NCBI GenBank assembly: GCA_902772725.1 | Contig: CACYBS010000313.1 | Coordinates: 1-37,744 of the forward strand | DNA: 37,744 nt | Origin: Erysipelothrix rhusiopathiae | GTDB lineage: Bacteria; Bacillota_I; Bacilli_A; Erysipelotrichales; Erysipelotrichaceae | Direction: 5' to 3' | In this document: piece after piece, positions 1,899-23,260 of the stretch | Layout: each line of letters begins with the position of its first letter | Position numbering within the stretch: the stretch's first letter is position 1 | The notes under the pieces: model-generated | What the model was told of the DNA's origin: nothing | Database searches by the model: none | What the model saw: the letters and a program-made list of their open reading frames with translations, nothing else | Program-made: the position numbers and the translations under genes

Positions 1899-3650
1899 AT
1901 GCCTTATTTAACGAAAAAGATTGTAGAAAACACAAAAATTCAAGAAGAAGCTAAGGCGGCTATTAAAGAACTGGAATCCTCAAATATCTTTAGATACGCA
2001 ACAGGGGACAGAAGTATGATTCCGGTTTTAGCAGCTTACCTTTTATATCGTGTACAGCTATTGGAGAATCCTTCAACTATTACTTATGAAGAGATTATGG
2101 AAAATTATCGATTAAACATTGATGAAGAGGTATTGCCTGCAATAAGACAGTATATAACAGAACAAATTTGGGGAGAAATTAAGCCGCTAGTTGAAAAATA
2201 TTCTTCTGAGGCAATGGCATTAGTCGCTTTCGCGTATGATTTAGATTCAAGGGGCAGAGAATACAGCACTCCAACATCCATTGTTAAATTAGCTGCAAGA
2301 ATATTAGATATTCAGCCGGGTGAAAGAGTTGCTGATTTATGCTGTGGTACAGGTGCTTTCATCAACTATGTTAATTTGGAAGTACCAGAAGCTACTTACA
2401 CAGGATATGAAATTAATTCTTATTATAGAGCGATTTCAAAAATTAGATCAGAATTAATCAGTCATGAAACTGAAATTATTCTGCAAGATGTTTTTTCAAT
2501 AAATCTTGAAACAACTCCTAAATATGACAAAATATTTGCGAACTATCCTTTTGGATTACGATTTAATAATTTAAGTGGCGGTAATAAATTGATGGAAGAA
2601 CTTGCTTCAAAATGTCTTAGACATCGAAGAGTACATTCTTCAGATTGGGCTTTTAATTACTTGATTCATAATTTGTTGGCCGAAAAAGGAAAAGCGGTTG
2701 CGATTATGACCAATGGCAGTACATGGAATACTATGGATGAACCTGTACGAAAGTATTTTGTGGAACAGGGAATTATTGAAGCTGTAATCACCTTGCCAAA
2801 AAACATGTTTAGTTATATGAGTGTTTCAACAACAATGATTGTTATCAGCAGCAATAATAAAGACATCAGATTTGTGGATGCGACAAATATTTGTCAGCAG
2901 GGAAGAAGAATGAACGAATTCTCTGATGAAGATATAGATACGATTATGACAGCTTTAACTGAGGATACAGACTTTAGCAGAAAAATTACATTGAATCAGT
3001 TGAAAGAGAATGAATATACTCTGAGTTTAAGCCGATATCTTGACAGCAATATTGAAATTGAATATCCAGAGACATTTGAAACTGTCATTAAAAAAATTAC
3101 ACGAGGCGCTCCTTGCAACGCAAAGCAGTTGGATGATATGGCTTCTGAAGAACCAACAAACATGCAGTATTTGATGATTTCAAATATTCAAGACGGCATC
3201 ATTGATAAAAACTTAAAATATTTGTCATATATTGATCCTAAATTTGAGAAATATTGCTTAAACAACAATGATTTAATTCTTTCTAAGAATGGATACCCAT
3301 ATAAGGTAGCTGTTGCATCAGTAAATAAAGGCCAAAAAATATTGGCAAATGGTAATTTGTTCATTATTGAAGTGGATGCCGAAAGAGTAGATCCATATTA
3401 TCTTAAGGCCTTCTTTGAAAGTGAAAAGGGTATCGCAACTCTTAAAAGCATAACGGTGGGTGCAACAATCCCGAACATCGGTATTGATAAATTATCCAAA
3501 ATAAAAGTGCCGGTTCCACCTATGGAAGAACAAAGAAGAGTTGTTAATAAATATCTAGAGACTCTAGACGAAATAGAAGTGCTTAAATTACGAATGGAAA
3601 AAGCAACAAGTCGCTTACGTCATATATTTGATGAAGAGGGTGGTGAGTAA
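1899..3650 (+). CDS. Atypical N6-adenine DNA methyltransferase fused to a type I specificity (TRD-like) domain
   Basis: This 583-residue protein has a helical N-terminus like HsdM, then a Rossmann methyltransferase core. SAM-binding motif I is DLCCGTGAF near residue 146, preceded by a REYSTPTSIV segment matching the HsdM (E)FYTP region. Catalytic motif IV is NYPF near residue 214, where HsdM proteins have NPPF. Residues about 400-583 resemble one half of an HsdS subunit: a recognition domain with NNDLILSKNG and ATIPNIGIDKL motifs, then the PPMEEQRRVV helix that acts as the conserved spacer. This is the first gene after the operator-controlled promoter, with AAGGAG eight bases before the ATG. 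The fusion resembles a nuclease-free type IIG layout. It may be a second methyltransferase of the cluster or a non-catalytic recognition protein; NxPF/Y also occurs in active enzymes such as Erm, so activity cannot be ruled out. Confidence 0.8.
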   Translation: MPYLTKKIVENTKIQEEAKAAIKELESSNIFRYATGDRSMIPVLAAYLLYRVQLLENPSTITYEEIMENYRLNIDEEVLPAIRQYITEQIWGEIKPLVEKYSSEAMALVAFAYDLDSRGREYSTPTSIVKLAARILDIQPGERVADLCCGTGAFINYVNLEVPEATYTGYEINSYYRAISKIRSELISHETEIILQDVFSINLETTPKYDKIFANYPFGLRFNNLSGGNKLMEELASKCLRHRRVHSSDWAFNYLIHNLLAEKGKAVAIMTNGSTWNTMDEPVRKYFVEQGIIEAVITLPKNMFSYMSVSTTMIVISSNNKDIRFVDATNICQQGRRMNEFSDEDIDTIMTALTEDTDFSRKITLNQLKENEYTLSLSRYLDSNIEIEYPETFETVIKKITRGAPCNAKQLDDMASEEPTNMQYLMISNIQDGIIDKNLKYLSYIDPKFEKYCLNNNDLILSKNGYPYKVAVASVNKGQKILANGNLFIIEVDAERVDPYYLKAFFESEKGIATLKSITVGATIPNIGIDKLSKIKVPVPPMEEQRRVVNKYLETLDEIEVLKLRMEKATSRLRHIFDEEGGE

Positions 3651-3651
3651 A

Positions 3652-4182
3652 TTGTTGAGTATTGAAGAGCTGAGCGAGTTAGAAGAATCTCTTAGAATGG
3701 AATTAGAAGAAAATTTACTCACAATTTTGACAAAACTAAATAGAACAGGACAATTAGAAGAGTTGTTGTCATTGCTTGGATTAAAAGAATTATTGTACGG
3801 TAATAATTCGTACCAGGTATTTAAAACCGGTCAGATTCTCGTAATTGGACAGTCTAATGTGAAAGAAGATGTTTTGTTATCTGTAGCTGGAAAATACGGA
3901 ATTGATAAAAGCAGAGTTGAATTGCATCTAGAGTATGAAGTTGGGATTAAGTTTGACTTTAAGAAAACGCAATGGAATCCAAACTATTCTGTGATTTTAG
4001 TGGGGCCTCTACCACATAGCGGGATCTCTAAAGGTGATCATAGCAGTGTGATAACTGCAATTGAAAAGGAAGAGGGATATCCACCGGTTGTAAGGCTTGG
4101 AACAAACTCTTTACATATTACAAAAAGTGACTTTAGAAAGAAACTAAAAGAACTGTTAGATAACGGAATTATACTTGCGTAG
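3652..4182 (+). CDS. Small protein of unknown function in the type I operon
   Basis: The reading frame is open from at least 3628, but the GGGTGGTGAG ribosome-binding-like stretch at 3638-3647 points to TTG at 3652 or 3655 just after the stop of the preceding gene. ATG at 3631 inside that gene is an alternative. The product is about 176 residues. Its N-terminal 45 residues are charged and Leu/Glu-rich, probably helical. The rest alternates strand and helix, with GQILVIGQS, NYSVILVGPLPHSG and a C-terminal helix SDFRKKLKELL. I recognise no family, helix-turn-helix or nuclease motif. Tight coupling between the methyltransferase fusion and hsdM suggests that it works with them, perhaps as an adaptor or accessory subunit. 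Confidence 0.7.
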   Translation: MLSIEELSELEESLRMELEENLLTILTKLNRTGQLEELLSLLGLKELLYGNNSYQVFKTGQILVIGQSNVKEDVLLSVAGKYGIDKSRVELHLEYEVGIKFDFKKTQWNPNYSVILVGPLPHSGISKGDHSSVITAIEKEEGYPPVVRLGTNSLHITKSDFRKKLKELLDNGIILA

Positions 4183-4200: not shown

Positions 4201-5703
4201 ATGCCACAAAATAATGCGAATGTTGGATTTGAAAAACAAATCTGGGATGCTGCCTGTGTCTTATGGGGACACATTCCGGCAGCAGAATATAGAAAGGTTA
4301 TTATTGGGCTTATCTTTTTGAAGTATGTTTCAACAGCTTTTGACCGACGGTATAAAGTTTTAGTTGAAGAGGGGGAAGGATTTGAAGATGACCCAGACGC
4401 ATATGCAGAAGAAAATGTATTCTTCGTTCCAAAAGAAGCAAGATGGGACACTATCGCTTCTAATGCCCATACTCCAGAAATTGGAACCGTTATAGATAAA
4501 GCCATGATAGCCATTGAGCAAGACAATCCCAAACTAAAAAATGTTTTGCCTAAAAATTATGCAAATCCGGACTTGGATAAAACTGTTCTTGGTGATGTTG
4601 TAGATATCTTTACAAATATGGATATGGATGATACGGATGAAAGCAAAGACCTTCTGGGTAGAACTTATGAATACTGTATTATGATGTTTGCATCTAAAGA
4701 AGGTGCAGGTGGAGGAGAATTCTATACTCCTTCAAGCGTTGTTAAGACGTTGGTATCGGTTTTAAAACCATTTGATAATTGTCGAGTATATGATCCATGC
4801 TGTGGTTCTGGAGGTATGTTTGTACAGAGTGCACGTTTTGTACAGGCTCATTCCGGAAAGCGCGGAACTGTTGCGGTATATGGACAGGAAGCCAATGCAG
4901 ATACTTGGAAAATGGCAAAGATGAACATGGCTATCCGGGGTATTGATGCAGATTTTGGCCCTTATCAGGCAGATACTTTCTCCAATGATCTTCATCCACA
5001 TTTAAAGGCTGATTTCATCTTAGCGAATCCTCCATTTAACTACCATCCATGGGGACAGGAAAAATTGACTGAAGATTTAAGGTGGAAGTATGGTCTTCCT
5101 CCTGCCGGCAATGCCAACTATGCATGGATCCAGCACATGATATATCACCTTGCGCCTAATGGAAAAATAGGGCTTGTATTAGCCAATGGTGCATTATCTA
5201 CACAGACTTCAGGCGAAGGTGAAATAAGAAAGAAAATTATAGAAGATGATCTTGTGGAAGGTATTGTTGCATTACCTACACAATTGTTTTATAGCGTTAC
5301 GATTCCGGTAACATTATGGTTTATTACCAAGAATAAGAAGCAAAAAGGTAAAACGTTGTTTATCGATGCCAGAAAAATGGGTCATATGGTAGATAGGAAA
5401 CATCGTGATTTTGATGATGAGGATATCCAAAAGATCGCAGATACATTTGAAGCATTCCAGAATGGTACATTGGAAGATGTAAAAGGTTTCTGTGCTGTAG
5501 CTACTTTAGAAGATATTGCCAAACAGGATTACATTCTTACTCCTGGTAGATATGTCGGTATTGAAGAACAGGAAGATGATGGAGAACCATTTGAAGAGAA
5601 AATGGCAAGATTAACTTCAGAGTTGTCTGAAATGTTTAAAAAGTCTCATGAATTGGAAGATGAGATTCGTAAAAAACTGGGAGCAATAGGATATGAAGTG
5701 TAA
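4201..5703 (+). CDS. hsdM: Type I restriction-modification methyltransferase subunit HsdM
   Basis: This 500-residue protein has the usual HsdM length. The N-terminal helical domain (HsdM_N) includes the WGHIPAAEYRKVIIGLIFLKY segment, partly near residues 22-42. The methyltransferase domain has GGGEFYTP near residue 170, SAM motif I DPCCGSGGMF near 198 and catalytic motif IV NPPF near 276. Two HsdM bind one HsdS to methylate adenine in a bipartite site. A ribosome binding site, AGGGAGG, lies a few bases before the ATG. The 3' end overlaps hsdS1 by 11 bases, so translation is coupled. The NPPF motif is intact here, in contrast to the methyltransferase encoded two genes upstream. Confidence 0.95.
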   Translation: MPQNNANVGFEKQIWDAACVLWGHIPAAEYRKVIIGLIFLKYVSTAFDRRYKVLVEEGEGFEDDPDAYAEENVFFVPKEARWDTIASNAHTPEIGTVIDKAMIAIEQDNPKLKNVLPKNYANPDLDKTVLGDVVDIFTNMDMDDTDESKDLLGRTYEYCIMMFASKEGAGGGEFYTPSSVVKTLVSVLKPFDNCRVYDPCCGSGGMFVQSARFVQAHSGKRGTVAVYGQEANADTWKMAKMNMAIRGIDADFGPYQADTFSNDLHPHLKADFILANPPFNYHPWGQEKLTEDLRWKYGLPPAGNANYAWIQHMIYHLAPNGKIGLVLANGALSTQTSGEGEIRKKIIEDDLVEGIVALPTQLFYSVTIPVTLWFITKNKKQKGKTLFIDARKMGHMVDRKHRDFDDEDIQKIADTFEAFQNGTLEDVKGFCAVATLEDIAKQDYILTPGRYVGIEEQEDDGEPFEEKMARLTSELSEMFKKSHELEDEIRKKLGAIGYEV

Positions 5704-6193
5704 ACTGGGAGATATCGCTGAAATAACAATGGGTCAATCCCCTAAATCTCAATATTATAACTCAGATGGAGTAGGAATGCCTTTTTTACAAGGGAATCGA
5801 ACTTTCGGAGATAAATACCCTACTTTTGATACTTGGACTTCAATGACAACAAAGGTTGCAAAAGCTGGAGATGTTATTATGAGCGTTCGAGCACCGGTCG
5901 GAGATTTAAATATTACTCCCATAGATTTCTGCTTGGGTAGAGGAGTTTGCTCTATTAGAATGAAAAACGGAAATCAAGAGTTTTTATATTACTTGTTAAA
6001 ATATTATGTGCCACAGTTGGTCAATAAAGAAAGTGGTACCGTATTTGGATCAGTTAATCGTAATGATATTTTTGGACTTGAAATTGATATTCCAGAAAAC
6101 TTTGCGATCCAGAAAAAGTTATCTGATTTCTTGTCAATTATTGATGATAAAATACAGCTTAATAAGCATATAAACAAGAATTTAGCAGCTTAA
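5693..6193 (+). CDS. hsdS: HsdS1, half-length specificity subunit in the truncated phase
   Basis: The 166-residue product is the N-terminal half of an HsdS: one recognition domain (LGDIAEITMGQSP start, SVRAPVGDLNI) and one conserved spacer helix (QKKLSDFLSIIDDKIQLNKHINKNL). It stops two residues after INKNL because the following DNA is an inverted C-terminal cassette. Full-length HsdS is about 375-420 residues. The gene overlaps hsdM by 11 bases. Exchange at the repeats 6170-6185 and 6825-6840 would join residue 164 in frame to 211 residues of the cassette, giving 375 residues. Half-size HsdS proteins can dimerise to give a functional palindromic specificity in known systems, so this state need not be inactive. 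I do not regard it as a decayed pseudogene because the reading frame and repeats are intact. Confidence 0.9.
   Translation: MKCKLGDIAEITMGQSPKSQYYNSDGVGMPFLQGNRTFGDKYPTFDTWTSMTTKVAKAGDVIMSVRAPVGDLNITPIDFCLGRGVCSIRMKNGNQEFLYYLLKYYVPQLVNKESGTVFGSVNRNDIFGLEIDIPENFAIQKKLSDFLSIIDDKIQLNKHINKNLAA
6170..6185 (+). repeat. Recombination site A (direct orientation)
   Basis: ATAAACAAGAATTTAG encodes INKNL at the end of the HsdS1 spacer helix. It is identical to site C at 8424 and inverted relative to sites B and D. Confidence 0.85.
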
Positions 6194-6840
6194 AGGTTGA
6201 GCTCAGATGTATCCAGTTCTCCAGACATAAGCTTAGGCAAGAGTATATCCCTTAACTCTTCAAGCCGTTGGTTTTCTATCTGGTTTGCATATATTAACCG
6301 CCTAATACTAGTTAAGGTAGCTGAAATTTCGCCTTGTGTCTCAATAGAAGCATAAGGCACTACAATTGACGCCATATCTGCATAATTGCCTTGTGGAAAC
6401 GTTCCAGAACGTGACTCTGTTTTTAACGTGAACTCCGCTTCAACATCTGGAAGTAGAAGGTACTGATATAACATGGCAGGCGAAACTTTTGCTTCAATCA
6501 CACGGATCACCATTAGCCGTGTTGATGCGATATATTCGGAAGCATCAAACTGAACAAAACCATAATGATGATTTCGTGGTCTAATTTCTGAATAGAGGAC
6601 GTCACCCGATTGGAATCTCTTTTTGAAATGACCTTTCAAATCCTCATTAGGCACTAATGGTGCTATAGGGAAAACCCCTTCAGTAACATCACTACTATTA
6701 AGAAGATGAACCATCTCCTTGTTAACGGGAGTGTAGTCTAATATATTGTCAGACAAATCACTTATCGTACACTTATCTGAGCAAGAGTCAGTCCACTCTT
6801 CAAAAACAAGTGCAGCTTGCTGCTCTAAATTCTTGTTTAT
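6190..6840 (-). CDS. hsdS: Silent HsdS C-terminal half (cassette C1), inverted
   Basis: Read on the minus strand this encodes INKNLEQQAALVFEEW, then a recognition domain, a second spacer helix (ETQGEISATLTSIRRLIYAN) and the canonical HsdS C-terminus LRDILLPKLMSGELDTSELNL, partly matching the HsdS2 end LRDTLLPRLMSGEIDVSDINF. The first ATG at 6756 gives 188 residues, but the homologous frame starts at the repeat near 6840. Upstream of the repeat on this strand the frame loses HsdS similarity and meets a TAG at 6883-6885, so there is no N-terminal half here. No ribosome binding site is evident, so it should be silent as drawn. Its stop codon overlaps the stop of hsdS1 tail to tail (shared TTAA at 6190-6193). 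Confidence 0.85.
   Translation of the reverse strand: MNKNLEQQAALVFEEWTDSCSDKCTISDLSDNILDYTPVNKEMVHLLNSSDVTEGVFPIAPLVPNEDLKGHFKKRFQSGDVLYSEIRPRNHHYGFVQFDASEYIASTRLMVIRVIEAKVSPAMLYQYLLLPDVEAEFTLKTESRSGTFPQGNYADMASIVVPYASIETQGEISATLTSIRRLIYANQIENQRLEELRDILLPKLMSGELDTSELNL
6825..6840 (-). repeat. Recombination site B (inverted orientation)
   Basis: CTAAATTCTTGTTTAT on the plus strand is the exact reverse complement of site A. It marks the start of the silent cassette C1. On the minus strand it continues as AG, as does site C, giving 18 matching bases to the hsdS2 site. Confidence 0.85.
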
Positions 6841-6869
6841 AATAGCGGATTCGCAATAATAAATGTCAT

Positions 6870-6895
6870 TTGTTATTGTTCTCTATAAATAACAA
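6870..6895. repeat. Inverted repeat in front of the recombinase gene
   Basis: TTGTTATT (6870-6877) and AATAACAA (6888-6895) form 8-base arms around a 10-base loop, just before the recombinase ribosome binding site. It could be an operator or a small RNA hairpin that limits recombinase translation. Confidence 0.4.
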
Positions 6896-6909
6896 TATGG
6901 AGAATCAAT

Positions 6910-7890
6910 ATGAAAAAACAAATTATTAATGAAGTGTTACAAAAAATGCTGTCCGAACTAAATAATGGCCAACTTAATCAATTAAAAAATGCGCTGGATT
7001 CTGTCTTAACAAGATTTGATATTCTTGATGATGAATCAGACATTCAATCCAGCATCGAACTACAAGAAAAGTTTTTAGAGGCAAAAAGAATTGAAGGATG
7101 TTCTGATAAAACTATCAATTATTATAAAAAAACAATTTATGATTTGCTACTTGGTGTTGATAAAGAAGTTATACATATTACAACAGAGGATCTAAGAAAA
7201 TATTTGACAGATTATCAGACAAATAAAAAGATCAGTAAAGTAACGGTAGACAATATAAGAAGAATACTTTCCAGTTTCTTTTCATGGCTTGAGGATGAAG
7301 ACTATATATTAAAAAGTCCGGTAAGAAGAATTCATAAAGTAAAAACTAACCTGATTGTTAAAGATACATATAGCGATGAAGAATTAGAGCAAATGAGAGA
7401 TTCTTGCGATGAACTTAGAGACCTTGCGATGATTGACATGCTTGCATCTACTGGTATGCGAGTTGGTGAAATGGTTTTATTAAACAGAAACGATATAGAC
7501 TTTAATGAGAGAGAATGCGTCGTATTCGGTAAAGGAAATAAGCAAAGAATTGTTTATTTTGATGCTAGAACAAAAATTCATCTTCAGAATTATTTAAACA
7601 GTAGAACAGACAACAACGAAGCGTTATTTGTTTCATTAAGATCTCCATTTACTAGATTAAGTATCGGAGGAATCGAGTCGAGGATTAGAGATATTGGCAA
7701 TAATTTAGGACTTCAAAAAGTTCATCCTCATAAATTTAGACGAACATTAGCTACAGTTGCGATTGATAAAGGAATGCCTATAGAGCAATTGCAACAATTA
7801 TTGGGACATAAAAGAATTGATACAACATTGCAGTACGCAATGGTCAAACAGAGCAATGTTAAGAATGCTCATAGAAAATTTATTGGATAG
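6910..7890 (+). CDS. Tyrosine recombinase controlling hsdS inversion
   Basis: This 326-residue XerC/XerD-like integrase has an N-terminal SAM-like DNA-binding domain (about residues 55-150) and a C-terminal catalytic domain. All active-site residues can be placed: Arg184 in TGMRVGE, Lys208 in FGKGNKQR, His274 and Arg277 in HKFRR, His300 in LLGHK and nucleophile Tyr309 in LQYAMV. A weak GGAG lies before the ATG. It sits between the inverted cassette and hsdS2, 14 bases before the latter. In known phase-variable type I loci (for example the pneumococcal SpnIII locus) a recombinase of this kind in the same position inverts hsdS halves. The repeats on both sides support that role here; XerC/D chromosome-dimer resolution is unlikely from the context. 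Confidence 0.9.
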   Translation: MKKQIINEVLQKMLSELNNGQLNQLKNALDSVLTRFDILDDESDIQSSIELQEKFLEAKRIEGCSDKTINYYKKTIYDLLLGVDKEVIHITTEDLRKYLTDYQTNKKISKVTVDNIRRILSSFFSWLEDEDYILKSPVRRIHKVKTNLIVKDTYSDEELEQMRDSCDELRDLAMIDMLASTGMRVGEMVLLNRNDIDFNERECVVFGKGNKQRIVYFDARTKIHLQNYLNSRTDNNEALFVSLRSPFTRLSIGGIESRIRDIGNNLGLQKVHPHKFRRTLATVAIDKGMPIEQLQQLLGHKRIDTTLQYAMVKQSNVKNAHRKFIG

Positions 7891-7904
7891 AAAGGGCTTG
7901 AAGT

Positions 7905-9125
7905 ATGAAATGGAAAACATGTACGATTGGCGATATAGGAAATGTTGTCGGAGGGGCGACACCTTCAACAAAGAAAAAAGAGAATTATGAAAACGGCAAT
8001 ATTGCTTGGATTACTCCCAAGGATCTTGCTGGGTTTTCCGAAAGATATATTTCCCATGGTGAAAGATTTATTACAGAAATGGGATTGAATTCATGCTCGA
8101 CTCAACTGATTCCTAAACATTCAGTATTATTTTCTTCGAGAGCACCGATTGGATATGTTGCCATAGCAGCTAACGAAGTATGCACTAATCAAGGGTTTAA
8201 GAGTGTTGTCCCTAATAAAGAGACTGATTATATGTTTCTTTATTATCTCCTAAAATATAGTAAGAAGAAAATTGAGAACATGGGGTCTGGAACGACTTTT
8301 AAAGAGGTGTCTGGCAACACAATGCGAGGGATTGAAGTAAAAATTCCAGAGTGTATCGAAGATCAGAAGAAGATTTCATCAATTTTATCATCTATAGACG
8401 ATAAAATTGAATTAAATCAAGCGATAAACAAGAATTTAGAGATGCAAGCCTTGGCGCTTTTCTGTCATTATTTTATAGACTATGAACCTTACGGTGGTAC
8501 TGCACCTTCGAACTGGATAGAGGTTTCCTTAGATGATGTGTGTGCTCGAATAACTGATGGATCACATTACAGTCCAGTTGATGCTCCTGGTGCTCCATAC
8601 CCCATGTATTCAGTTAAGGACATGGAGACTTACGGTTTCAATTCTTCTTCTTGCAAGCACATTACGGCAGAAGAGTTCCTTAAAATGCAGAAAAACGATT
8701 GTGTTCCAAGGCTCAACGACATCCTTGTCGCTAAAGATGGCAGTTATCTTAAAGAGATTTTCATATGCTCAGAAGAAAAAGATGAAGCTATCTTATCTTC
8801 AATTGCCATCTTTAGGCCTAACACAGAAATCATCATGCCCGAAATTCTTCTTTATCTCCTTAAGCATCCTTCGATTAGGAAGGATGTCGGGGATAACTAT
8901 GTATCCGGCTCTGCATTACCGAGAATTGTCTTAAAGGATTTCAAGAAATACACCTTTTTGCTTCCGCCAATGACAGAGCAGTTAAAAATTGGTTCCATTC
9001 TTAATGCTATAAAGATGGAAACGAAGTCAAATGTTGATGAAATTCAAAACTTATCAGCTCTAAGAGATACCCTTTTACCTAGGTTGATGTCTGGTGAAAT
9101 CGATGTTTCTGACATCAATTTCTAG
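7905..9125 (+). CDS. hsdS: HsdS2, full-length type I specificity subunit
   Basis: The 406-residue protein has two recognition domains. The first (TIGDIGNVVGGATPST start) is followed by spacer helix 1, QKKISSILSSIDDKIELNQAINKNL, ending at residue 178. The second (WIEVSLDDVCARITDGSHYSP) is followed by spacer helix 2, EQLKIGSILNAIKM, and the LRDTLLPRLMSGEIDVSDINF end. HsdS determines the bipartite DNA target and docks two HsdM. The recombination-site core lies at 8424-8439, exactly at the junction of the halves, and an imperfect inverted copy lies three bases past the stop. Inversion between them would cut the protein to 179 residues ending INKNLN, mirroring the present state of hsdS1. The two N-terminal recognition domains of hsdS1 and hsdS2 differ clearly, as do the two C-terminal ones, so four targets are possible. 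Confidence 0.93.
   Translation: MKWKTCTIGDIGNVVGGATPSTKKKENYENGNIAWITPKDLAGFSERYISHGERFITEMGLNSCSTQLIPKHSVLFSSRAPIGYVAIAANEVCTNQGFKSVVPNKETDYMFLYYLLKYSKKKIENMGSGTTFKEVSGNTMRGIEVKIPECIEDQKKISSILSSIDDKIELNQAINKNLEMQALALFCHYFIDYEPYGGTAPSNWIEVSLDDVCARITDGSHYSPVDAPGAPYPMYSVKDMETYGFNSSSCKHITAEEFLKMQKNDCVPRLNDILVAKDGSYLKEIFICSEEKDEAILSSIAIFRPNTEIIMPEILLYLLKHPSIRKDVGDNYVSGSALPRIVLKDFKKYTFLLPPMTEQLKIGSILNAIKMETKSNVDEIQNLSALRDTLLPRLMSGEIDVSDINF
8424..8439 (+). repeat. Recombination site C (direct orientation, inside hsdS2)
   Basis: ATAAACAAGAATTTAG is identical to site A and in the same reading frame (INKNL). Sequence on either side diverges from hsdS1 by scattered substitutions, so the short core is the conserved exchange site. 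Confidence 0.85.
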
Positions 9126-9127
9126 TT

Positions 9128-9140
9128 TAAATTCTTGTTT
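9128..9140 (-). repeat. Recombination site D (inverted, imperfect)
   Basis: TAAATTCTTGTTT matches 13 consecutive bases of the 16-base site in inverted orientation, starting three bases after the hsdS2 stop. The flanking positions of the 16-mer differ. Its placement matches that of site B relative to cassette C1. Confidence 0.6.
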
Positions 9141-9219
9141 CTGCGTGTAAGAACTACACTAAATACAACCAATTTTGATTTGTAAAACACTATAAATATT
9201 AATATCGGAGGTAAATAAT

Positions 9220-12200
9220 ATGCCGGGTATTTATACAGAAGCTGATTACGAACAATCAGTAATACAGCTATTCCAAGGAATGGACTATCAATATGTCTAT
9301 GGTCCAAATGTAGAAAGAGACTTCCGAAGTCCTTTATATGATGAGGTTTTGGAAGACTCTTTAGTGCGTCTAAATCGGAACCTTCCACGTAATGCAATTC
9401 AAGATGCACTATATAAACTGAGAAACTTTGAAAATGGCTCATTAGTACAAAAAAATGAAGTTTTTATGGACTATCTACAAAATGGTGTACCGGTCCGGTA
9501 TTTTGCTGATGGAGAAGAAAAATCTTCAATTGTTTACCTCGTAGATTATAAGAATCCAGACAATAACTCGTATATTATCGCAAATCAATGGACATTTATT
9601 GAAAACAGCACAAAACGGCCGGATGTAATCTTGTTTTTAAATGGATTACCTGTTGTTCTAGTGGAATTGAAATCGCCATCTAGAGAAGAAACAGATGCAT
9701 CTGAGGCCTATTTGCAGCTTCGTAATTATATGTTGGAGATTCCATCTATGTTTATCTATAACGCTATCTGCGTTATGAGCGATCACTTAACAAGTAAGGC
9801 AGGAACCATTACTTCAGGTGAAGATCGTTTCATGGAATGGAAAACCAAAGACGGCAGTTACGAAAATACACAATATGCTCAATTTGATACCTTCTTTGAA
9901 GGAATGTTTGAAAAAGAGCGACTGCTGGATATTATAAAAAACTTTATTTGCTTTTCAAATGATGGCATCAGCAAAATAAAAATCTTAGCCGGTTATCATC
10001 AATATTTCGCAGTTAGAAAAGCAATCGAATCTACAAAACACGCTACAGTTACCGATGGTAAAGGTGGTGTCTTTTGGCATACACAGGGCAGTGGAAAGTC
10101 CCTTTCCATGGTTTTCTACACTCATCTTTTGCAGGAAGCCTTGGACAGCCCGACTGTTGTTGTATTAACGGATAGAAATGACTTGGATGATCAATTATTT
10201 AATCAATTCTTTAAATGTAAGGAATTCCTCCGTCAGACACCGTTACATGCTGAAAGCAGAGAAAACTTAAAAGAATTATTATCGAAAAGAAAAGTAAACG
10301 GCATTATCTTTACGACAATGCAGAAATTTGAAGAGTCCCATGAGCCTCTTTCTGAAAGAAGAAATATTGTGGTAATGGCAGATGAGGCCCATCGTGGACA
10401 ATATGGCCTTTCTGAAAGAATAAAGTTAACAAAGAATGAGACAGGAGAAGATATTGCGAAAAAAGTAGTGGGAACTGCACGTATTATTCGTAACAGCCTT
10501 CCAAATGCTACATATATCGGATTTACAGGCACTCCAATCTCTCAAGCAGATAGAAATACACGGGAAGTGTTTGGCGATTATATCGATATCTACGATATGA
10601 CACAGGCAGTAGAGGATGGAGCTACTCGTCCGGTTTATTACGAAAGTCGTGTTATAAAACTTAAACTGGATGAGCCTACACTGAAACTAATCGATGACGA
10701 ATATGAAGCAATGGCCAATAATGCTGATCCAGAGCTTATTGAAAAAAGTAAGCGTCAATTGGGCAAAATGGAAGCTATTCTTGGAAATGATAGAACTTTA
10801 GATTCTTTAGTTGGTGATATTTTAGATCATTATGAAAACTATAGGGAAAACCTTCTGACAGGAAAGGCTATGATTGTTGCTTATTCTCGTCCGATTGCAA
10901 TGAAAATCTATCAAAAAATCTTAGAACTTAGACCGGGCTGGAAAGATAAAGTAAAAGTTGTTATGACAGGTAGCAACAAAGACCCGGAAGAATGGCATGA
11001 TATTGTGGGAAATAAGGCATATAAAGAAAGTTTAGCCATTTCATTTAAAGACAATGACAGTCCTTTTAAGATTGCTATTGTGGTAGATATGTGGCTGACA
11101 GGTTTTGATGTGCCTTCACTTGCGACAATGTACGTTTATAAACCAATGTCTGGACATAATTTGATGCAGGCAATAGCCCGGGTTAATCGTGTATTTAAAG
11201 ATAAAGAGGGTGGATTGGTTGTCGATTATGTAGGAATCGCCAGTGCCTTAAAGCAGGCTATGAATGATTATACAGTTCGAGACAGAAAAAATTATGGCGA
11301 TACCGATGTCGCAAAAGTCGCATATCCAAAATTTCTTGAAAAGTTGGAAGTCTGTCAGGATATTTTCCACGAATATGATTATTCAAAATTCTTGAATGGT
11401 ACTGAGCTGGAAAGAGCTAAGGCCATCAGCGGTGCGGTTAACTTCATAATGGATATAAAGCGTGAGAAAGATAGGGAAACTTTCTTAAAAGAGTCTTTTA
11501 TGCTAAGACAGGCATTATCTTTATGTTCATCGCTGGTTGAGGAGAAAGACCGGTTTGAAGCTGCTTTCTTTGAATCTATACGGGTATTGGTAAACCGCCT
11601 ATCCAGCCAGGGAGCCGGTTCAAGAATCTCCCTGCCGGAGATGAATCAGAGAATCAATGAACTTTTAAAGCAGAGTATAAAGAGTGAAGGCGTTATTAAT
11701 CTCTTTTCTGATGTACACGAAGAATTTTCGTTATTTGATCCACGGTTTTTGGATGAAATATCCAAGATGAAGGAAAAGAATCTTGCGGTTGAATTATTGA
11801 AAAAGCTTATTGCAGAACAGGTACAGATTTATCGTAGAACAAATGTCGTTAAGTCGGAGCTGTTTAGTGAAATCATTCAGAAAACAATGAATGCCTATTT
11901 GAATGGAATGTTAACAAACGAAGAAGTAATTCAGGAATTGCTGAATTTGGCAAAACAGATCTCGGATGCGAAAAAAGAAGGTGAACAGCTTGGATTGACT
12001 GCAGATGAGTTAGCTTTCTATGATGCCTTAACAAAGCCACAGGCTATTAAAGATTTCTATGAAAATGCTGAACTTATCGCTATTACTAAAGAACTTGCAG
12101 AAGCTTTGAGAAAAAATCGGACAATAGATTGGCAGAAAAGAGAATCTGCTCGCTCAAAAATGAGGATGATTGTAAAAAGACTTCTAAGGAAGCACAAGTA

Positions 12201-12291
12201 TCCACCTGAAGGCATGGACGATGCTGTTAAAACAGTAATTCTTCAATGTGAACTGTGGACTGATAATCAAGATATGTCTGTGAACGCATAA
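9220..12291 (+). CDS. hsdR: Type I restriction endonuclease subunit HsdR
   Basis: This 1023-residue protein is the DNA-cleaving, translocating subunit. The N-terminal PD-(D/E)xK nuclease has RPDVILFLNG and VVLVELKSP, giving the catalytic Asp and Glu-x-Lys (residues about 138-160). The SF2 motor has Walker A TQGSGKS near residue 289, DEAH in MADEAHRGQYG near 388, FTGTPI near 436, a DMWLTGFDVPSL motif near 623 and MQAIARVNRVF near 648. The helical C-terminus docks onto the methyltransferase. A GGAGG-type ribosome binding site lies seven to eight bases before the ATG. It follows hsdS2 by 94 bases, probably in the same operon. Cleavage specificity would change with each hsdS switch. No frameshift or missing motif is seen, so this is a complete restriction system. 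Confidence 0.95.
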   Translation: MPGIYTEADYEQSVIQLFQGMDYQYVYGPNVERDFRSPLYDEVLEDSLVRLNRNLPRNAIQDALYKLRNFENGSLVQKNEVFMDYLQNGVPVRYFADGEEKSSIVYLVDYKNPDNNSYIIANQWTFIENSTKRPDVILFLNGLPVVLVELKSPSREETDASEAYLQLRNYMLEIPSMFIYNAICVMSDHLTSKAGTITSGEDRFMEWKTKDGSYENTQYAQFDTFFEGMFEKERLLDIIKNFICFSNDGISKIKILAGYHQYFAVRKAIESTKHATVTDGKGGVFWHTQGSGKSLSMVFYTHLLQEALDSPTVVVLTDRNDLDDQLFNQFFKCKEFLRQTPLHAESRENLKELLSKRKVNGIIFTTMQKFEESHEPLSERRNIVVMADEAHRGQYGLSERIKLTKNETGEDIAKKVVGTARIIRNSLPNATYIGFTGTPISQADRNTREVFGDYIDIYDMTQAVEDGATRPVYYESRVIKLKLDEPTLKLIDDEYEAMANNADPELIEKSKRQLGKMEAILGNDRTLDSLVGDILDHYENYRENLLTGKAMIVAYSRPIAMKIYQKILELRPGWKDKVKVVMTGSNKDPEEWHDIVGNKAYKESLAISFKDNDSPFKIAIVVDMWLTGFDVPSLATMYVYKPMSGHNLMQAIARVNRVFKDKEGGLVVDYVGIASALKQAMNDYTVRDRKNYGDTDVAKVAYPKFLEKLEVCQDIFHEYDYSKFLNGTELERAKAISGAVNFIMDIKREKDRETFLKESFMLRQALSLCSSLVEEKDRFEAAFFESIRVLVNRLSSQGAGSRISLPEMNQRINELLKQSIKSEGVINLFSDVHEEFSLFDPRFLDEISKMKEKNLAVELLKKLIAEQVQIYRRTNVVKSELFSEIIQKTMNAYLNGMLTNEEVIQELLNLAKQISDAKKEGEQLGLTADELAFYDALTKPQAIKDFYENAELIAITKELAEALRKNRTIDWQKRESARSKMRMIVKRLLRKHKYPPEGMDDAVKTVILQCELWTDNQDMSVNA

Positions 12292-12349: not shown

Positions 12350-15300
12350 ATGGATATTGAACGCGGTCGAATAATCAATGACTTTATAGAGCCAAACAAG
12401 AAGCAATATATTATCCCTGTTTATCAACGAAATTATGAATGGTCTCGCGAACAATGTGTGAAACTGTTCGAGGATATCGTAAATGCGTATAAAAGGGATA
12501 AATCCCATTTTTGCGGATCGGTTGTATATGCTCAACTTCCTCCTAAACATGGAATCGATTACTATGTGATAGTTGACGGTCAGCAGCGATTAACCACAGT
12601 TTATTTGCTCATCAAGGCTTTAATCGATTGTGCTGAAACGGAAAAACAAAGAGAATCTTTATCTGAAAGCGTGATTAATAGAGATAAATTTGACACTTAC
12701 GATGTGGAGGAAGCCAGCAAATTAAAATTAAAACCAATTAAATCGGATAACCAGCAGCTATATCTCTTGATGGAAAACAAATATGATCAAATGGATAAAA
12801 GCAGTGGAATTTGGGTGAATTATTCTATTTTTAAAGAATTGATTCAAGAGCTTCTTGCGAAAGATCCTAACATGGATGTGAAGATGATATATAAAGGGAT
12901 AGAGAAGCTGGTTTGTGCGAAGATACGATTAGATCAAGGTGATAATGCACAGGAAATATTTGAGCGAATCAATTCTACCGGTGTCCCTTTAAGCTTATCG
13001 GATCAAATTCGAAATTATGTATTAATGACGGACGAAAACCAGGATAAGCTTTATGAAGATTATTGGTTAAAAGTTGAACATCTCGTATCCAAAGAAAATA
13101 TGACAGCTTTCTTCATGGACTATTTAAATTTCAAATTGGATGGATTCACCAAAGAAAAACAGGCATATGAAGATTTTAAAAAATTGTATGTGCAGGACAA
13201 ATATACAAACGAAGGCATGTTAAAAGAAATACTTCATTATGCAGAGTTTTATAATGTCTTCTTGAATGGCAGTTCAAGTTATTCGGGCACAATTAACGAA
13301 TCTCTCGAAGGGCTTAAATTATTAAATCAAACCACAGTATACCTTTTCTTGTTTAAGGTGTTTGATGACTATAAAGATGGTGTAATAAATCAGGAGGAAT
13401 TAGGTAAGATATTGCGCATGCTTTTAAATTACAGCATCCGTAGAACGATGTGTGATATTTCATCTAACTCGTTAAGAGGCATGTATAAAACGCTTTATAA
13501 CCGCGTATTTAACCAGGCAGAGAATAAAGAGCATTATTATGATTCTATCGTCTCATTCATGCTTCAATTGACATCTAGAGATGCCATTCCTACCGATGAT
13601 GAATTCGAATATGCCTTAATCAATAATAACCTGTATCGTAAACATGCTCTTTGTAAATATCTCTTGGTTGGAATTGAAAACCAAGGCAAAGAAAAGGTTA
13701 TGACGGACATGTTGAGTGTAGAACATGTAATGCCGCAGAATAAAAATCTATCAACTTCCTGGCAAAAGATGTTAGGTGATAACTGGATGGAAGATAAAGA
13801 TAGATGGCTCCATACGTTGGGTAATTTAACACTTACAGGATATAATAGCGAGCTTGGAGATAAACCGTTCCTTGAAAAGAAAAAGATGATTGAAGATAAA
13901 AATACAAAGATTGTTAATCTTTATTCAGATATTCAAGATAAAGTGGAATGGAATGCTAAGACGATACAAGAACGGGCTAAAAGGCTTTCAAAAGAGGTAA
14001 TGCGTTTATATCCGATTGATAAGCCAGCTAAATTAATCTCGTTTTCTGATCCAAGATATAAAGAGTATACGTGTGCAGAACCGAGCAACGCCACATATAA
14101 AGCTGTTAATTATTACGAGCTCGAAGGTGAAAGAGTAAGTACGGATAGTTTTGCGGATATGGTGCGCTCGGTGGCTAAGAAGTTATACGATAAAGACCCA
14201 TCTGTTATTGAACGTATGGCAAAAAATTTAGAGACCTTTAAAGACTGGATCAATCCTGTTTTCTCATACAATCCTAAAGATGTTAAAGGGACAGTAAAAC
14301 TGGAGGGAACTAACATTTTTATCAGCACGGGATATTCTGCTTATGATTGCGTAAGTTTTATCCGAGGATTATTAAGGAAATACGATTTGGATATCGAAGA
14401 AGATTTTGTGTACAGCGCAAGGTCTTATCAACCGAGTAAATCTGCGGATTCAGAAGAGGAAGGACGAAAAGTGATTCGTCGCAGTTATTGGGAATATGCT
14501 TTACCAATAATTCAGCGCGAAAACGCATATAGGAAAACTTATTTGAATTGTACTCCTACAACCAGCAATGAAACTAGGGGCTCTTTTGGAATAGCAGGAT
14601 TTGATGTGAGATGTGTTGCCAATTATGATGAAGCCAGAGTTGACTTATGGTTGGCAAGTAATGACACAAATAAAAATAAAGAAGCATATGATCTTCTATA
14701 TGAACATAAAGATGCTATAGAATCAGAACTTGGTGTTTCCCTGGGCTGGGGAAGAGGAGATGACTATAAGTCATCATGGATTGTTTATCACTTGAAAGAT
14801 GTTAGCATTACTAATAAACAAGACTGGGAAAAAATGGCTCAATTCCATGCAACGTGGAGTAATAAGATTTGTAATGCAGTATTACCGTATTTGAAAGCTC
14901 GATTCCATGGGAAAGCCACAGTAGAGGAATTTAGACAATCGTTACAATTATCAGAGTTGAATTATAGATGGGCGTTATCATGTCCTGATATTGAAGTAGA
15001 AATTGCAAAATGTGAAGAAGGCTGGATACGTTTTAAAACCAAATATATGGACTCTCTATTGCCTGCAATTGATGGATATTTAAGCGATTGGAAAACGTTC
15101 AGTCATTATTATTATGAGATTAGGAAGAAAAATAAAAATGAAATTAACATTCAGCTGGCAATTAATTTGACCAACCTTCCTGATCAGCAGAAAAATATAG
15201 TAGATAAAATATGTGAATTATTCCCGGATGGATATTCAGATGCGAAGTGGGAAGTTCCTTTTTCAACTAGAAGATATTCTGTAAAAGAACATTCAAAAGA

Positions 15301-15379
15301 GGAAGTTGAGCAAGTGTTGAATAAATATCTTGATGAAATTTGGGAATTTGAACAATCTTTAAAACATAATGAAATCTGA
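12350..15379 (+). CDS. GmrSD-like modification-dependent restriction nuclease (DUF262-DUF1524-DUF4268)
   Basis: The 1009-residue protein begins with a DUF262 (GmrS/ParB-like NTPase) domain: YIIPVYQRNYEW near residue 20 and the nucleotide-binding IVDGQQRLTT near 76. A DUF1524 (GmrD, His-Me finger) nuclease follows around residues 455-520, with SVEHVMPQ, LGNLTLTGYN and KPFLEKK motifs. A middle region resembles small recognition domains, and the C-terminus (from about residue 760) looks like DUF4268, a fold related to PD-(D/E)xK nucleases. Family members such as GmrSD and BrxU cleave DNA with modified (often glucosylated) cytosines and block phages that evade type I systems. It is 58 bases downstream of hsdR with an AGGAGG site. 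The TGA stop is followed by a strong terminator. Domain calls are confident; the modification recognised is unknown. Confidence 0.88.
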   Translation: MDIERGRIINDFIEPNKKQYIIPVYQRNYEWSREQCVKLFEDIVNAYKRDKSHFCGSVVYAQLPPKHGIDYYVIVDGQQRLTTVYLLIKALIDCAETEKQRESLSESVINRDKFDTYDVEEASKLKLKPIKSDNQQLYLLMENKYDQMDKSSGIWVNYSIFKELIQELLAKDPNMDVKMIYKGIEKLVCAKIRLDQGDNAQEIFERINSTGVPLSLSDQIRNYVLMTDENQDKLYEDYWLKVEHLVSKENMTAFFMDYLNFKLDGFTKEKQAYEDFKKLYVQDKYTNEGMLKEILHYAEFYNVFLNGSSSYSGTINESLEGLKLLNQTTVYLFLFKVFDDYKDGVINQEELGKILRMLLNYSIRRTMCDISSNSLRGMYKTLYNRVFNQAENKEHYYDSIVSFMLQLTSRDAIPTDDEFEYALINNNLYRKHALCKYLLVGIENQGKEKVMTDMLSVEHVMPQNKNLSTSWQKMLGDNWMEDKDRWLHTLGNLTLTGYNSELGDKPFLEKKKMIEDKNTKIVNLYSDIQDKVEWNAKTIQERAKRLSKEVMRLYPIDKPAKLISFSDPRYKEYTCAEPSNATYKAVNYYELEGERVSTDSFADMVRSVAKKLYDKDPSVIERMAKNLETFKDWINPVFSYNPKDVKGTVKLEGTNIFISTGYSAYDCVSFIRGLLRKYDLDIEEDFVYSARSYQPSKSADSEEEGRKVIRRSYWEYALPIIQRENAYRKTYLNCTPTTSNETRGSFGIAGFDVRCVANYDEARVDLWLASNDTNKNKEAYDLLYEHKDAIESELGVSLGWGRGDDYKSSWIVYHLKDVSITNKQDWEKMAQFHATWSNKICNAVLPYLKARFHGKATVEEFRQSLQLSELNYRWALSCPDIEVEIAKCEEGWIRFKTKYMDSLLPAIDGYLSDWKTFSHYYYEIRKKNKNEINIQLAINLTNLPDQQKNIVDKICELFPDGYSDAKWEVPFSTRRYSVKEHSKEEVEQVLNKYLDEIWEFEQSLKHNEI

Positions 15380-20479: not shown

Positions 20480-23260
20480 TTATTCGGGCTGATCTTTGTT
20501 TTTACGTCTTCTGAATTTTGTTAAAAAGCCAAGTCCTAAGATAGATCCTGACATTCCGGCAATAGATGATGCGGAAGATAAATCTATTGCGGTATTAACA
20601 GACTTAGAAGAGCTTGATGAATTTTTAGATGGTTTCGATGAGCCTTTAGAAGACTTCGAAGAAGGTTTGTTCGAAGACATCGAACTTTTCTTAGAAGAGG
20701 AAGAAGGTTTTCCTTTGCGAGAAGAAGAACTTCTCTTGCTCTTTAAAGTTTTCTCCATATCTGAGTTCAACAAATCATTTAAAGTCTTGTCAACTACATC
20801 GTTTTCATTTGTCTCGGTCTGATCATCCACTTTAGCCACTTTTTCCTGGTTTTCTGTTTCCGGGTTTTGTGGGGAAGTCTGTTCACCATGCATAGCCGGC
20901 AGCTGGGCAGATTGTTCCTGGCCGGAAGCCGCTTCTGTGTTATTGATTAACAGGCTGTACTGACCATCTGTCAAAGTCTCACTTGCATATAGTACGCTGT
21001 TAGCTGATTTTTCTGCAGTAAAGGAATATACTACGTTTCCATTTTCATCAACGATAGAAACCAGATCATCTGCTTGAATTTGTACACCGTTTGTATTCAT
21101 CTGCATCATATCGGCATTTTCTAAAGTAGAATCAAACGCCATGGCATTCATTGGCATTTGAGGCATGGTACCGTCCTGTGGCATCTGAGGCATAGTACCG
21201 TCCTGCGGCATCTGAGGCATAGTACCATCCTGCGGCATCTGAGGCATAGTACCATCCTGCGGCATCTGAGGCATAGCGCCATCCTGCGGCATCTGAGGCA
21301 TAGCGCCATCCTGTGGCATCTGAGGCATAGTACCATCCTGCGGCATCTGAGGCATAGCGCCATCCTGTGGCATCTGAGGCATGGTGCCATCCTGCGGCAT
21401 TTGAGGCATAGCGCCATCCTGTGGCATCTGAGGCATGGTGCCATCCTGCGGCATTTGAGGCATAGCGCCATCCTGCGGCATTTGAGGCATAGTGCCATCC
21501 TGTGGCATCTGTTGGTTTGGATTCATTGGCTGGCCGTTCATCGGCATTCCTGCATTATATCCAAAGGCAACATAGTTACCGCTTGTAGGTGTTAAGGCCA
21601 TCTGATTTTGACCAACCAGTAATACAGTACCTCCACTGATCACAAACTCATCGGTAGGATTATCTCCATAATCAACAGCGCTGTTTTCACCCTGGGCTGC
21701 TCCATATACTACAACTGTTCCATCCGAAATATAAACAGAACCGTTGGAATCTAAACCATCGCCTTCGGCATTCACATAGATATCACCGCCGGAGATATCA
21801 ATCACATAGGCATAATTTGTTAAGTCGCTGTTAGCTGCATTGATTCCATCGTCGCTTGTCACGATATCATACGATCCGTTTTTAATATAAACAGAAGCGC
21901 CTTCCAAACCCTCTACCGCTGAGTAAATGTTTACTGTCGGTCCGTTTTCATCATCACCCAGCGTTAATACATAATCTGAATGAATCGCATCATCTCCGGC
22001 ATAGATATCGAGTGTGCCATCGGTAATTGTGATGTTTCCATCGGCGTGAATCGCATCTTCACAGGCATCAATATTATAATCGCCACCGTAGATCAAGATA
22101 TTGGCATCAGACTTGATACCCTTGGCACTGGAATCTTCATCTAAGTAGTCAATATTGGTATGTCCATCATAGGTTGTGATCACCAATGTTCCATCATAAA
22201 TCGTAAGATCCCCAGTCGCCTGAATGCCGTCACCCTGGGCATCGATAGTAATGATTCCATCGTTGATAGTAATGACACCTGCTGAATCGGTATCATCCTC
22301 ATCCGGCTCTGCTTTAATTCCGTCATTTCCTGCAGTAACATTCACAATACCTTTATTGATAATGACTTCATTATCGCTGGCAATTCCGTTATTGGTGGCA
22401 AATACATTTAGTGTAAGGTCTGCAGAATCGACAATGATTGTAGAAAGGGAAGCACCCTTAATACCGTTTTTACAGTCAGAACCATCAATATTTAAAGTGC
22501 CTGTACCATCTAATGTCAAAGTGGCACCTGATTTTACTTTGATGGCAGCTCCTTCAAAGTCATCACTGTCTTCATTGGCAATATCTTCTGCATCGGTAAT
22601 GGTCGAAGTTCCATCATTGATAATCGTAACTTCGCTGTTTTTACCAATTGTGATCGGAGCTGTTTCTGAATTCGACAATGTTAAGTTTTGAAGTTCCAGA
22701 ATAACTTCCTGCAAGCCCTTGGAAACTGTGATGGATCCTTCGGAACAGGTTCCGGTAATCGTATAGCTGCCTGTGGCAGTAATCGTTAGATTGGTACCGT
22801 CTACTGTTACACCTTCATCATATGTAGAAACAATTCCATCCTCTGAGAAGGTGATACTGTTTTCTGTTTGAGATACACTTTCTGAAGCTTCAACAGTGTC
22901 TGCTGTTTCTACGGTTGTTTCTATTTCCTCTTCCACAGCTTCTTCTGTTTCTGCGTTTTCTGTCTTGATTTCAGTTTCTTCTGTCTCTACAACCGTTTCT
23001 GTTTCTACAGTATCTTCTGTCTCTGTTGTTTCATTTACGGTAGTTTCTTCTGTTTCTTTATCTTTTTCATCTTCTTCTAATACAACTTCATCATTGGTTA
23101 ATTCTTTTGTATCTTTATCTGCTTCTTCAATCACGGCCGGTACTGTATCCGTTTCTTCGGCCATGATGATGTCGGATTTAGCTAATCCGGTTCCAGCTGC
23201 CAATAAGATTCCGGCAGCTGCCATACCCTTTGTAAAGGAATTTGTTTTAACTTTTTTCAT
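20480..23260 (-). CDS. Secreted, membrane-anchored DUF4353 carbohydrate-binding-like protein with tandem repeats
   Basis: The 926-residue protein starts with a signal peptide (hydrophobic MAAAGILLAAGTGLA). A Glu/Thr/Val-rich low-complexity stretch runs from about 35 to 140. Residues about 150-560 form the DUF4353 region, a right-handed beta-helix-like series of short repeats (for example VIINKGIVNVTAGNDGIKA, DDAIHSDYVLTLG) thought to bind carbohydrate. Thirteen tandem nonapeptides MPQDG(T/A)MPQ occupy about 585-701. The C-terminal part holds another small domain, then a Ser/Lys-rich tract, a short hydrophobic segment (GSILGLGFL) and a positively charged tail, which should anchor it to the membrane or wall. 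No clear LPxTG is seen. An AGAGAGGTG site precedes the ATG. It is a likely adhesin or wall-associated protein; the ligand is unknown. Confidence 0.8.
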   Translation of the reverse strand: MKKVKTNSFTKGMAAAGILLAAGTGLAKSDIIMAEETDTVPAVIEEADKDTKELTNDEVVLEEDEKDKETEETTVNETTETEDTVETETVVETEETEIKTENAETEEAVEEEIETTVETADTVEASESVSQTENSITFSEDGIVSTYDEGVTVDGTNLTITATGSYTITGTCSEGSITVSKGLQEVILELQNLTLSNSETAPITIGKNSEVTIINDGTSTITDAEDIANEDSDDFEGAAIKVKSGATLTLDGTGTLNIDGSDCKNGIKGASLSTIIVDSADLTLNVFATNNGIASDNEVIINKGIVNVTAGNDGIKAEPDEDDTDSAGVITINDGIITIDAQGDGIQATGDLTIYDGTLVITTYDGHTNIDYLDEDSSAKGIKSDANILIYGGDYNIDACEDAIHADGNITITDGTLDIYAGDDAIHSDYVLTLGDDENGPTVNIYSAVEGLEGASVYIKNGSYDIVTSDDGINAANSDLTNYAYVIDISGGDIYVNAEGDGLDSNGSVYISDGTVVVYGAAQGENSAVDYGDNPTDEFVISGGTVLLVGQNQMALTPTSGNYVAFGYNAGMPMNGQPMNPNQQMPQDGTMPQMPQDGAMPQMPQDGTMPQMPQDGAMPQMPQDGTMPQMPQDGAMPQMPQDGTMPQMPQDGAMPQMPQDGAMPQMPQDGTMPQMPQDGTMPQMPQDGTMPQMPQDGTMPQMPMNAMAFDSTLENADMMQMNTNGVQIQADDLVSIVDENGNVVYSFTAEKSANSVLYASETLTDGQYSLLINNTEAASGQEQSAQLPAMHGEQTSPQNPETENQEKVAKVDDQTETNENDVVDKTLNDLLNSDMEKTLKSKRSSSSRKGKPSSSSKKSSMSSNKPSSKSSKGSSKPSKNSSSSSKSVNTAIDLSSASSIAGMSGSILGLGFLTKFRRRKNKDQPE
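21158..21508 (-). repeat. Thirteen 27-bp tandem repeats
   Basis: The units run without gaps and each encodes MPQDGTMPQ or MPQDGAMPQ. The sixth residue alternates Thr/Ala in units 1-8, then runs Ala, Thr, Thr, Thr, Thr. Differences between units are mainly at a few wobble positions and the Thr/Ala codon. Copy number changes would stay in frame. Confidence 0.95.

Follow-up and report, generated by a model that had tools for sequence, protein, structure and literature searches.

A putative inverting type I specificity switch with four recombination sites and a leader hairpin in Erysipelothrix rhusiopathiae, and its relatives in other bacteria

Switching of type I restriction-modification specificity is a known mechanism class, described for SpnIII, tvr, a Listeria locus and a Lactococcus 'shufflon'. 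In SpnIII (ivr/cod) of Streptococcus pneumoniae, PsrA/CreX swaps the C-terminal half of hsdS via a 15-bp inverted repeat (PMC4948785, PMC7096588). In SpnIV (tvr), expression of the recombinase TvrR is restrained by an RNA element (PMC6265443), and in the hsd locus of Listeria monocytogenes ST8 two hsdS genes flank an integrase and four variants were found among isolates (PMC4783014). The locus analyzed here lies in a 37,744-bp stretch of DNA from Erysipelothrix rhusiopathiae (the window). It resembles SpnIII in C-half exchange, a linked tyrosine recombinase and a short inverted repeat. However, SpnIII contains one expressed hsdS, silent donors and three kinds of repeat, whereas the window contains two N-halves, each able to be of full or half length, and a single core in four copies in place of the several inverted-repeat kinds that define the SpnIII/ivr subtype. 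The window shares hsdM, hsdS halves, a tyrosine recombinase and hsdR with tvr, but tvr has direct repeats, excision and reintegration, a transcriptional attenuator and toxin-antitoxin genes, whereas the window has a hairpin over a Shine-Dalgarno sequence; instead of the all-direct repeats and tvrAT of that subtype, sites in the order +,-,+,- and no gene between the second site (s2) and the recombinase were found. The Listeria ST8 locus differs in having two full, oppositely oriented hsdS genes and two kinds of inverted repeat (5′ and central). The 'shufflon' loci of the Lactococcus JM1 and JM2 plasmids (pMPJM1/pMPJM2) share the architecture of the window, with a recombinase of 62% identity, but differ in spacer and leader; the accessible part of the published account gives no sites, states or mechanism.

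The window was found to contain a complete type I locus with hsdM, hsdS and hsdR (Pfam, NCBIfam and PADLOC), organized as follows:

4201..5703, + strand: hsdM, type I methyltransferase subunit (HsdM_N, N6_Mtase; PADLOC MTase_I, E=1e-205)
5693..6193, + strand: hsdS1 N-terminal half, first recognition domain, N1 (Methylase_S, E=1e-19)
6190..6840, - strand: C-cassette X1, second recognition half (Methylase_S, E=3e-8; translation)
6841..6909, + strand: putative recombinase mRNA leader (fold z scores; covariance model match)
6910..7890, + strand: XerA-like tyrosine recombinase (PF00589, PF13495; NF040815; XerA 5hxy)
7905..9125, + strand: hsdS2, full length, N2 joined to X2 (two Methylase_S stretches, E=4e-48)
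8440..9126, + strand: C-cassette X2
9220..12291, + strand: hsdR, restriction subunit (HSDR_N and other domains; TIGR00348, 584 bits)

The cut hsdS1, the reversed C-half, the recombinase and the full-length hsdS2 described in the initial annotation were thus all located where it had placed them. The start of hsdS1 overlaps the stop codon of hsdM, and the gene terminates INKNL-AA-stop just beyond site s1, with a tail ('NL-AA-stop') that was also found in many relatives. X1 has no N-half of its own and is read from site s2 to a TAA stop. The convergent stop codons of hsdS1 and X1 overlap in TTAA (6190-6193), so that only a few bases lie between core and stop. The state of the window is N2-C2 on and N1 off. 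On translation, the N1C1, N1C2, N2C1 and N2C2 chimeras were all open across the junction, which bears out the earlier claim that every inversion keeps the reading frame. A promoter scan showed nothing exceeding chance.

The source genome consists of 404 contigs, is about 85% complete and has 5.5% contamination. It is therefore probably a MAG and not, as had been assumed, a single-isolate assembly. Among its other contigs no second orientation or alternative junction was found, so switching activity in this genome is predicted by homology, and methylation would then change with orientation.

Several neighbouring genes were recorded. Upstream, at 1899-4182, lie a gene that fuses an N6 methyltransferase with half a specificity domain and, after it, a small ORF with no assigned family; a relative of this pair is next to the Floccifex locus (L086; 37% and 47% identity), and Enterococcus columbae (L056) has part of it. 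A near-perfect inverted repeat at 1815-1886, TTTTGGTTATCGATAACCA / TGGTTATGGATAACCAAAA, surrounds a TTGACA...TATAAT-like promoter before the fusion gene and is likely an operator. A GmrSD-like DUF262 protein with DUF4268 downstream (12350-15379) and, upstream (50-1654), the C-terminal part of a large protein (PADLOC PDC-S37) make up a defence island. At 20480-23260 a large protein is encoded whose C-terminal part carries a lengthy tandem array of PQDG[TA]MPQM-type repeats.

Four copies of the 13-bp core AAACAAGAATTTA were found in the window, with alternating orientation:

6170..6185, + strand: site s1, exact 16-mer (13-bp core 6172-6184)
6825..6840, - strand: site s2, exact 16-mer
8424..8439, + strand: site s3, exact 16-mer
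9127..9142, - strand: site s4, core 9128-9140 intact, position and orientation conserved in relatives

The 16-mer ATAAACAAGAATTTAG was exact at 6170 (+), 6825 (-) and 8424 (+) and at no other place in the genome; s4 differs from it by two mismatches, both at the ends outside the intact 13-mer. With up to three mismatches to the 16-mer allowed, six matches were found in the window where 1.1 were expected, a count that 0 of 100 shuffles attained, while all other matches in the genome at up to two mismatches had exactly two. The weaker fourth site at 9127 is real, as relatives carry a site at the same place and in the same orientation. The three exact copies and the 13-base match at 9128 (-) listed earlier were hereby confirmed. 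After inversion at s4, N2 would terminate INKNL-N-stop. The additional variable hsdS sequence of the locus is accompanied by inverted repeats at a TRD border. A match at 8840 (-), inside the coding C-half of hsdS2 where relatives have no site, was rejected as a chance occurrence.

Across loci the core consensus was AAA[C/T]NNN[A/C]ATTTA, with inner arms TAAA and TTTA that are palindromic about a 6-bp middle. This middle differs between loci and is common within a locus, as expected of a tyrosine-recombinase crossover region. The spacer triplet (GAT, AAT, AAG and others) likewise varies between loci and is the same within a locus, which is partly a selection effect. A site was accepted only if it had at most one mismatch to the dominant 13-mer of its locus, and the within-locus core identity (100/103) thus follows in part from this rule, whereas the layout does not.

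The recombinase scored 244.4 bits against NF040815 (XerA-type; curated cutoff 220) and matched Phage_integrase (Pfam). Alignment with XerA (5hxy) covered R, K, HxxR, H and Y, in agreement with the catalytic residues reported initially. Hundreds of relatives were found, the best 80 of which showed 65-74% identity, from gut Bacillota and some other phyla. Relatives were present in about 4% of the genomes sampled from the family of L034 and the order of L031, and others were found on plasmids of Ligilactobacillus, Lactococcus and Enterococcus and on IMG/VR contigs. A second recombinase of the same superfamily in the source genome (L109; G000:C351:17874-18830; 57% identical), with hsdM and hsdR nearby, had an identical CAAATCCCGATTT core on each side as a direct repeat, an arrangement like that of tvr-like excision loci; one inverting and one excising specificity switch may coexist in the genome. 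Other sister recombinases (L113, L118, L119, L120, L265, L266 and L272; 55-61% identity) were surrounded by direct, not inverted, repeats with similar cores, often of two kinds. In a set of small genomes (L122, L125-L128, L130, L131, L133 and L136) the recombinase frame stayed open only with TGA decoded as an amino acid, in a Mycoplasma-like manner, and several of these retained core sites.

Each core site in the relatives was sorted by script according to its flanks (N-half, C-half, early-stop tail or intergenic). The four-site +,-,+,- order around the recombinase was found in 95 non-redundant, cleanly parsed loci, and the truncated-half architecture with the same tail was present in dozens of genomes, including complete genomes and complete plasmids. 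Four Lactococcus plasmids were 100% identical in flanks, module and cassettes. Among them, pJM2A and pUC073A showed N1-Ca with N2 off, pJM1A showed N1 off with N2-Ca, and pUCCL627F showed N1-Cb with N2 off, both of its cassettes being exchanged and reversed at the core compared to pJM2A and pUC073A. In pJM1A (L147, compared to L146) cassette a was seen on both sides, identical over 635 bp; this doubling may reflect either true copying of the cassette or an artefact of assembly. Besides, an 850-bp cassette was 100% identical but inverted at the core between MAG contig L103 and IMG/VR contig L160, in which the adjoining module was identical as well. The inversions that distinguish these variants of identical sequence break at the core, and inversion is thus observed in the family, not only inferred. 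Two Ruminococcus bromii-like genomes (L031 and L032) were 99.9-100% identical except for a replaced X2 cassette, which shows that cassettes are also exchanged between lineages. The conserved layout and the natural inversion states make the reading first proposed, an hsdS locus of two N-halves and two C-cassettes inverted by a recombinase, the best one.

By enumeration, pairwise inversions reach 16 states: 12 with one full hsdS, two with both and two with none. They give four full specificities in total, at most two simultaneously, and only three can be reached without s4, so the fourth site matters. The four full specificities by inversion that had been proposed held, but natural loci do not use the states equally. 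In the 88 loci with normal module orientation, hsdS1 was off and hsdS2 on in 46, the reverse was found in 35, neither was on in five and both in two; exactly one full-length hsdS was thus present in 81/88. Independent cassette flips would give half of the loci with both or neither (binomial 4e-17, relatedness ignored). The two C-cassettes were mirror images in 86/95 loci. In three of the nine exceptions (L074, L092 and L255) the two cassettes were 100% identical, which makes them duplications or assembly effects. The module was reversed in only 7/95 loci.

The interval between s2 and the recombinase was conserved in most relatives. An alignment of 63 leader sequences supported three helices: a hairpin (P1), a pseudoknot (P2) formed by the loop of P1 and a strand some 20 nt downstream, and a helix on the Shine-Dalgarno region (P3). 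Pairs changed on both sides were found at all six positions of P1, 4/7 of P2 and 3/9 of P3. Two-sided compensatory cells numbered 148, compared to 53.8 ± 7.8 when shuffled and 9-33 when slid, and RNAalifold recovered P2 on its own. By a strict rule the pseudoknot was detected in 69/95 leaders compared to 34/950 shuffled sequences, and the Shine-Dalgarno was covered by an uninterrupted helix of 7 bp or more in 54/95 leaders compared to 0/95. A covariance model built from the alignment gave 13 matches in 200 genomes from the family of L034. Seven preceded previously found recombinases; among the 12 matches inspected, one (L293) preceded a frameshifted recombinase and one (L298) a recombinase remnant, and with three (L297, L301 and L302) no recombinase was seen.

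The window leader matched the model at 6835-6913 (28.9 bits). It contains a 14-bp hairpin with one bulge (6874-6887/6896-6910) over the Shine-Dalgarno GGAG at 6899-6902, with fold z scores of -3.5 (75 nt) and -4.4 (45 nt). As the pseudoknot part of the family is missing, the window leader is a reduced member in which RNA control would depend on the hairpin. Structure and covariation suggest translational control of the recombinase by the leader. No Rfam match at gathering score was found for the window region or the searched leader-bearing loci of relatives, and at E up to 10 two leaders gave chance-level matches only. Unnamed candidate RNAs near integrases have been listed in human-microbiome RNA surveys (PMC8040213), and the leader may therefore have been sighted earlier without a label. 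A search for an 'xerDC' RNA motif led only to STAXI, which is described as tandem pseudoknots in two or three repeats (PMC2864571).

We consider it very probable that the locus is an inverting hsdS switch with two N-halves, two C-cassettes, four sites, a linked recombinase and, probably, hairpin-restrained translation. According to this model, two N-halves are fixed, N1 after hsdM and N2 after the recombinase, and two C-cassettes, X1 and X2, are movable. The joints between the halves fall in the central helix of HsdS, at a single recombination site present in four copies. The XerA-like recombinase would exchange DNA within the shared core, as the breakpoints in relatives indicate, so that a cassette flips or moves to the other N-half with the frame unbroken. 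Where an N-half abuts the tail end of a cassette, it would reach a stop a few codons on and give a half subunit; where it abuts the coding end, a full HsdS would result. The mRNA hairpin over the ribosome-binding site probably restrains translation of the recombinase, and perhaps also of the following hsdS2.

The single state seen and the missing alternative-junction contig would also fit a frozen locus, descended from a switching system, in which recombinase or sites are dead and N2-C2 is simply in use; the two end mismatches of s4 point the same way. We regard this as unlikely, because the recombinase is intact and retains every catalytic residue, s1 to s3 match one another over 16 bp and s4 agrees with them over the 13-bp core, and the silent N1 and C1 are still open frames, like the off halves of relatives. 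A pseudogene or assembly-chimera origin of hsdS1, as the fragmented and incomplete assembly might suggest, is highly improbable in view of the dozens of relatives with the same truncated half and tail. Movement of the cassettes chiefly by circle excision between direct copies and re-integration, with inversion secondary, is the route used by TvrR (PMC6265443). It would be compatible with s1/s3 and s2/s4 being direct repeats and with the similar direct cores around the sister recombinases, L109 included. The natural variants of this subfamily show reversed cassettes, however, and the strict +,-,+,- alternation is maintained in the parsed loci, and we judge a primarily excising system improbable. 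For the inverting switch, the rule that one hsdS is on could be caused by selection for one complete HsdS or by a recombination rule that loses directly oriented cassettes. Inertia by descent was rejected, as the on side is randomized on the recombinase tree (28 changes compared to 29.3 ± 2.5 when shuffled; no phylogenetic signal), which shows flips to be frequent on the time scale of the tree.

Those frequent flips are in line with selection for one, and only one, complete HsdS in each cell, in which case the rule would be uninformative about recombination mechanics. Cells without a complete HsdS lose methylation and protection, and cells with two would split HsdM between two subunits. On the other hand, the outer cassette of reversed-module loci is silent in either orientation and yet was mirrored in 5/7, plus L160, which is suggestive but not significant; we rate the selection explanation slightly below an even chance. 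Recombination of like with like (coding-coding and tail-tail ends) cannot by itself explain the mirror rule and was rejected in that form, since the on state could then never move from N1 to N2 and the on side is randomized on the tree. It is tenable only if rare cassette flips occur as well.

In the literature examined, no description of the one-on rule or the leader RNA was found. The architecture may be described in a survey of epigenetic invertons (Nucleic Acids Res. 2020). The broader interpretation, a widespread dual-cassette class with a mirror grammar, one specificity at once and a recombinase translationally controlled by a new class of cis-regulatory RNA, is in our view evenly balanced. 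If it holds, the RNA, an H-type pseudoknot beside a Shine-Dalgarno hairpin of which the window has a reduced version, could make the rate of epigenetic switching depend on a cellular signal. Inverting type I loci alter genome-wide methylation and which DNA a cell accepts, and the one-on architecture together with the leader makes the questions of switching rate and of one specificity at a time directly testable in non-pathogenic hosts, in dairy Lactococcus for the mechanics and in gut Bacillota for the leader.
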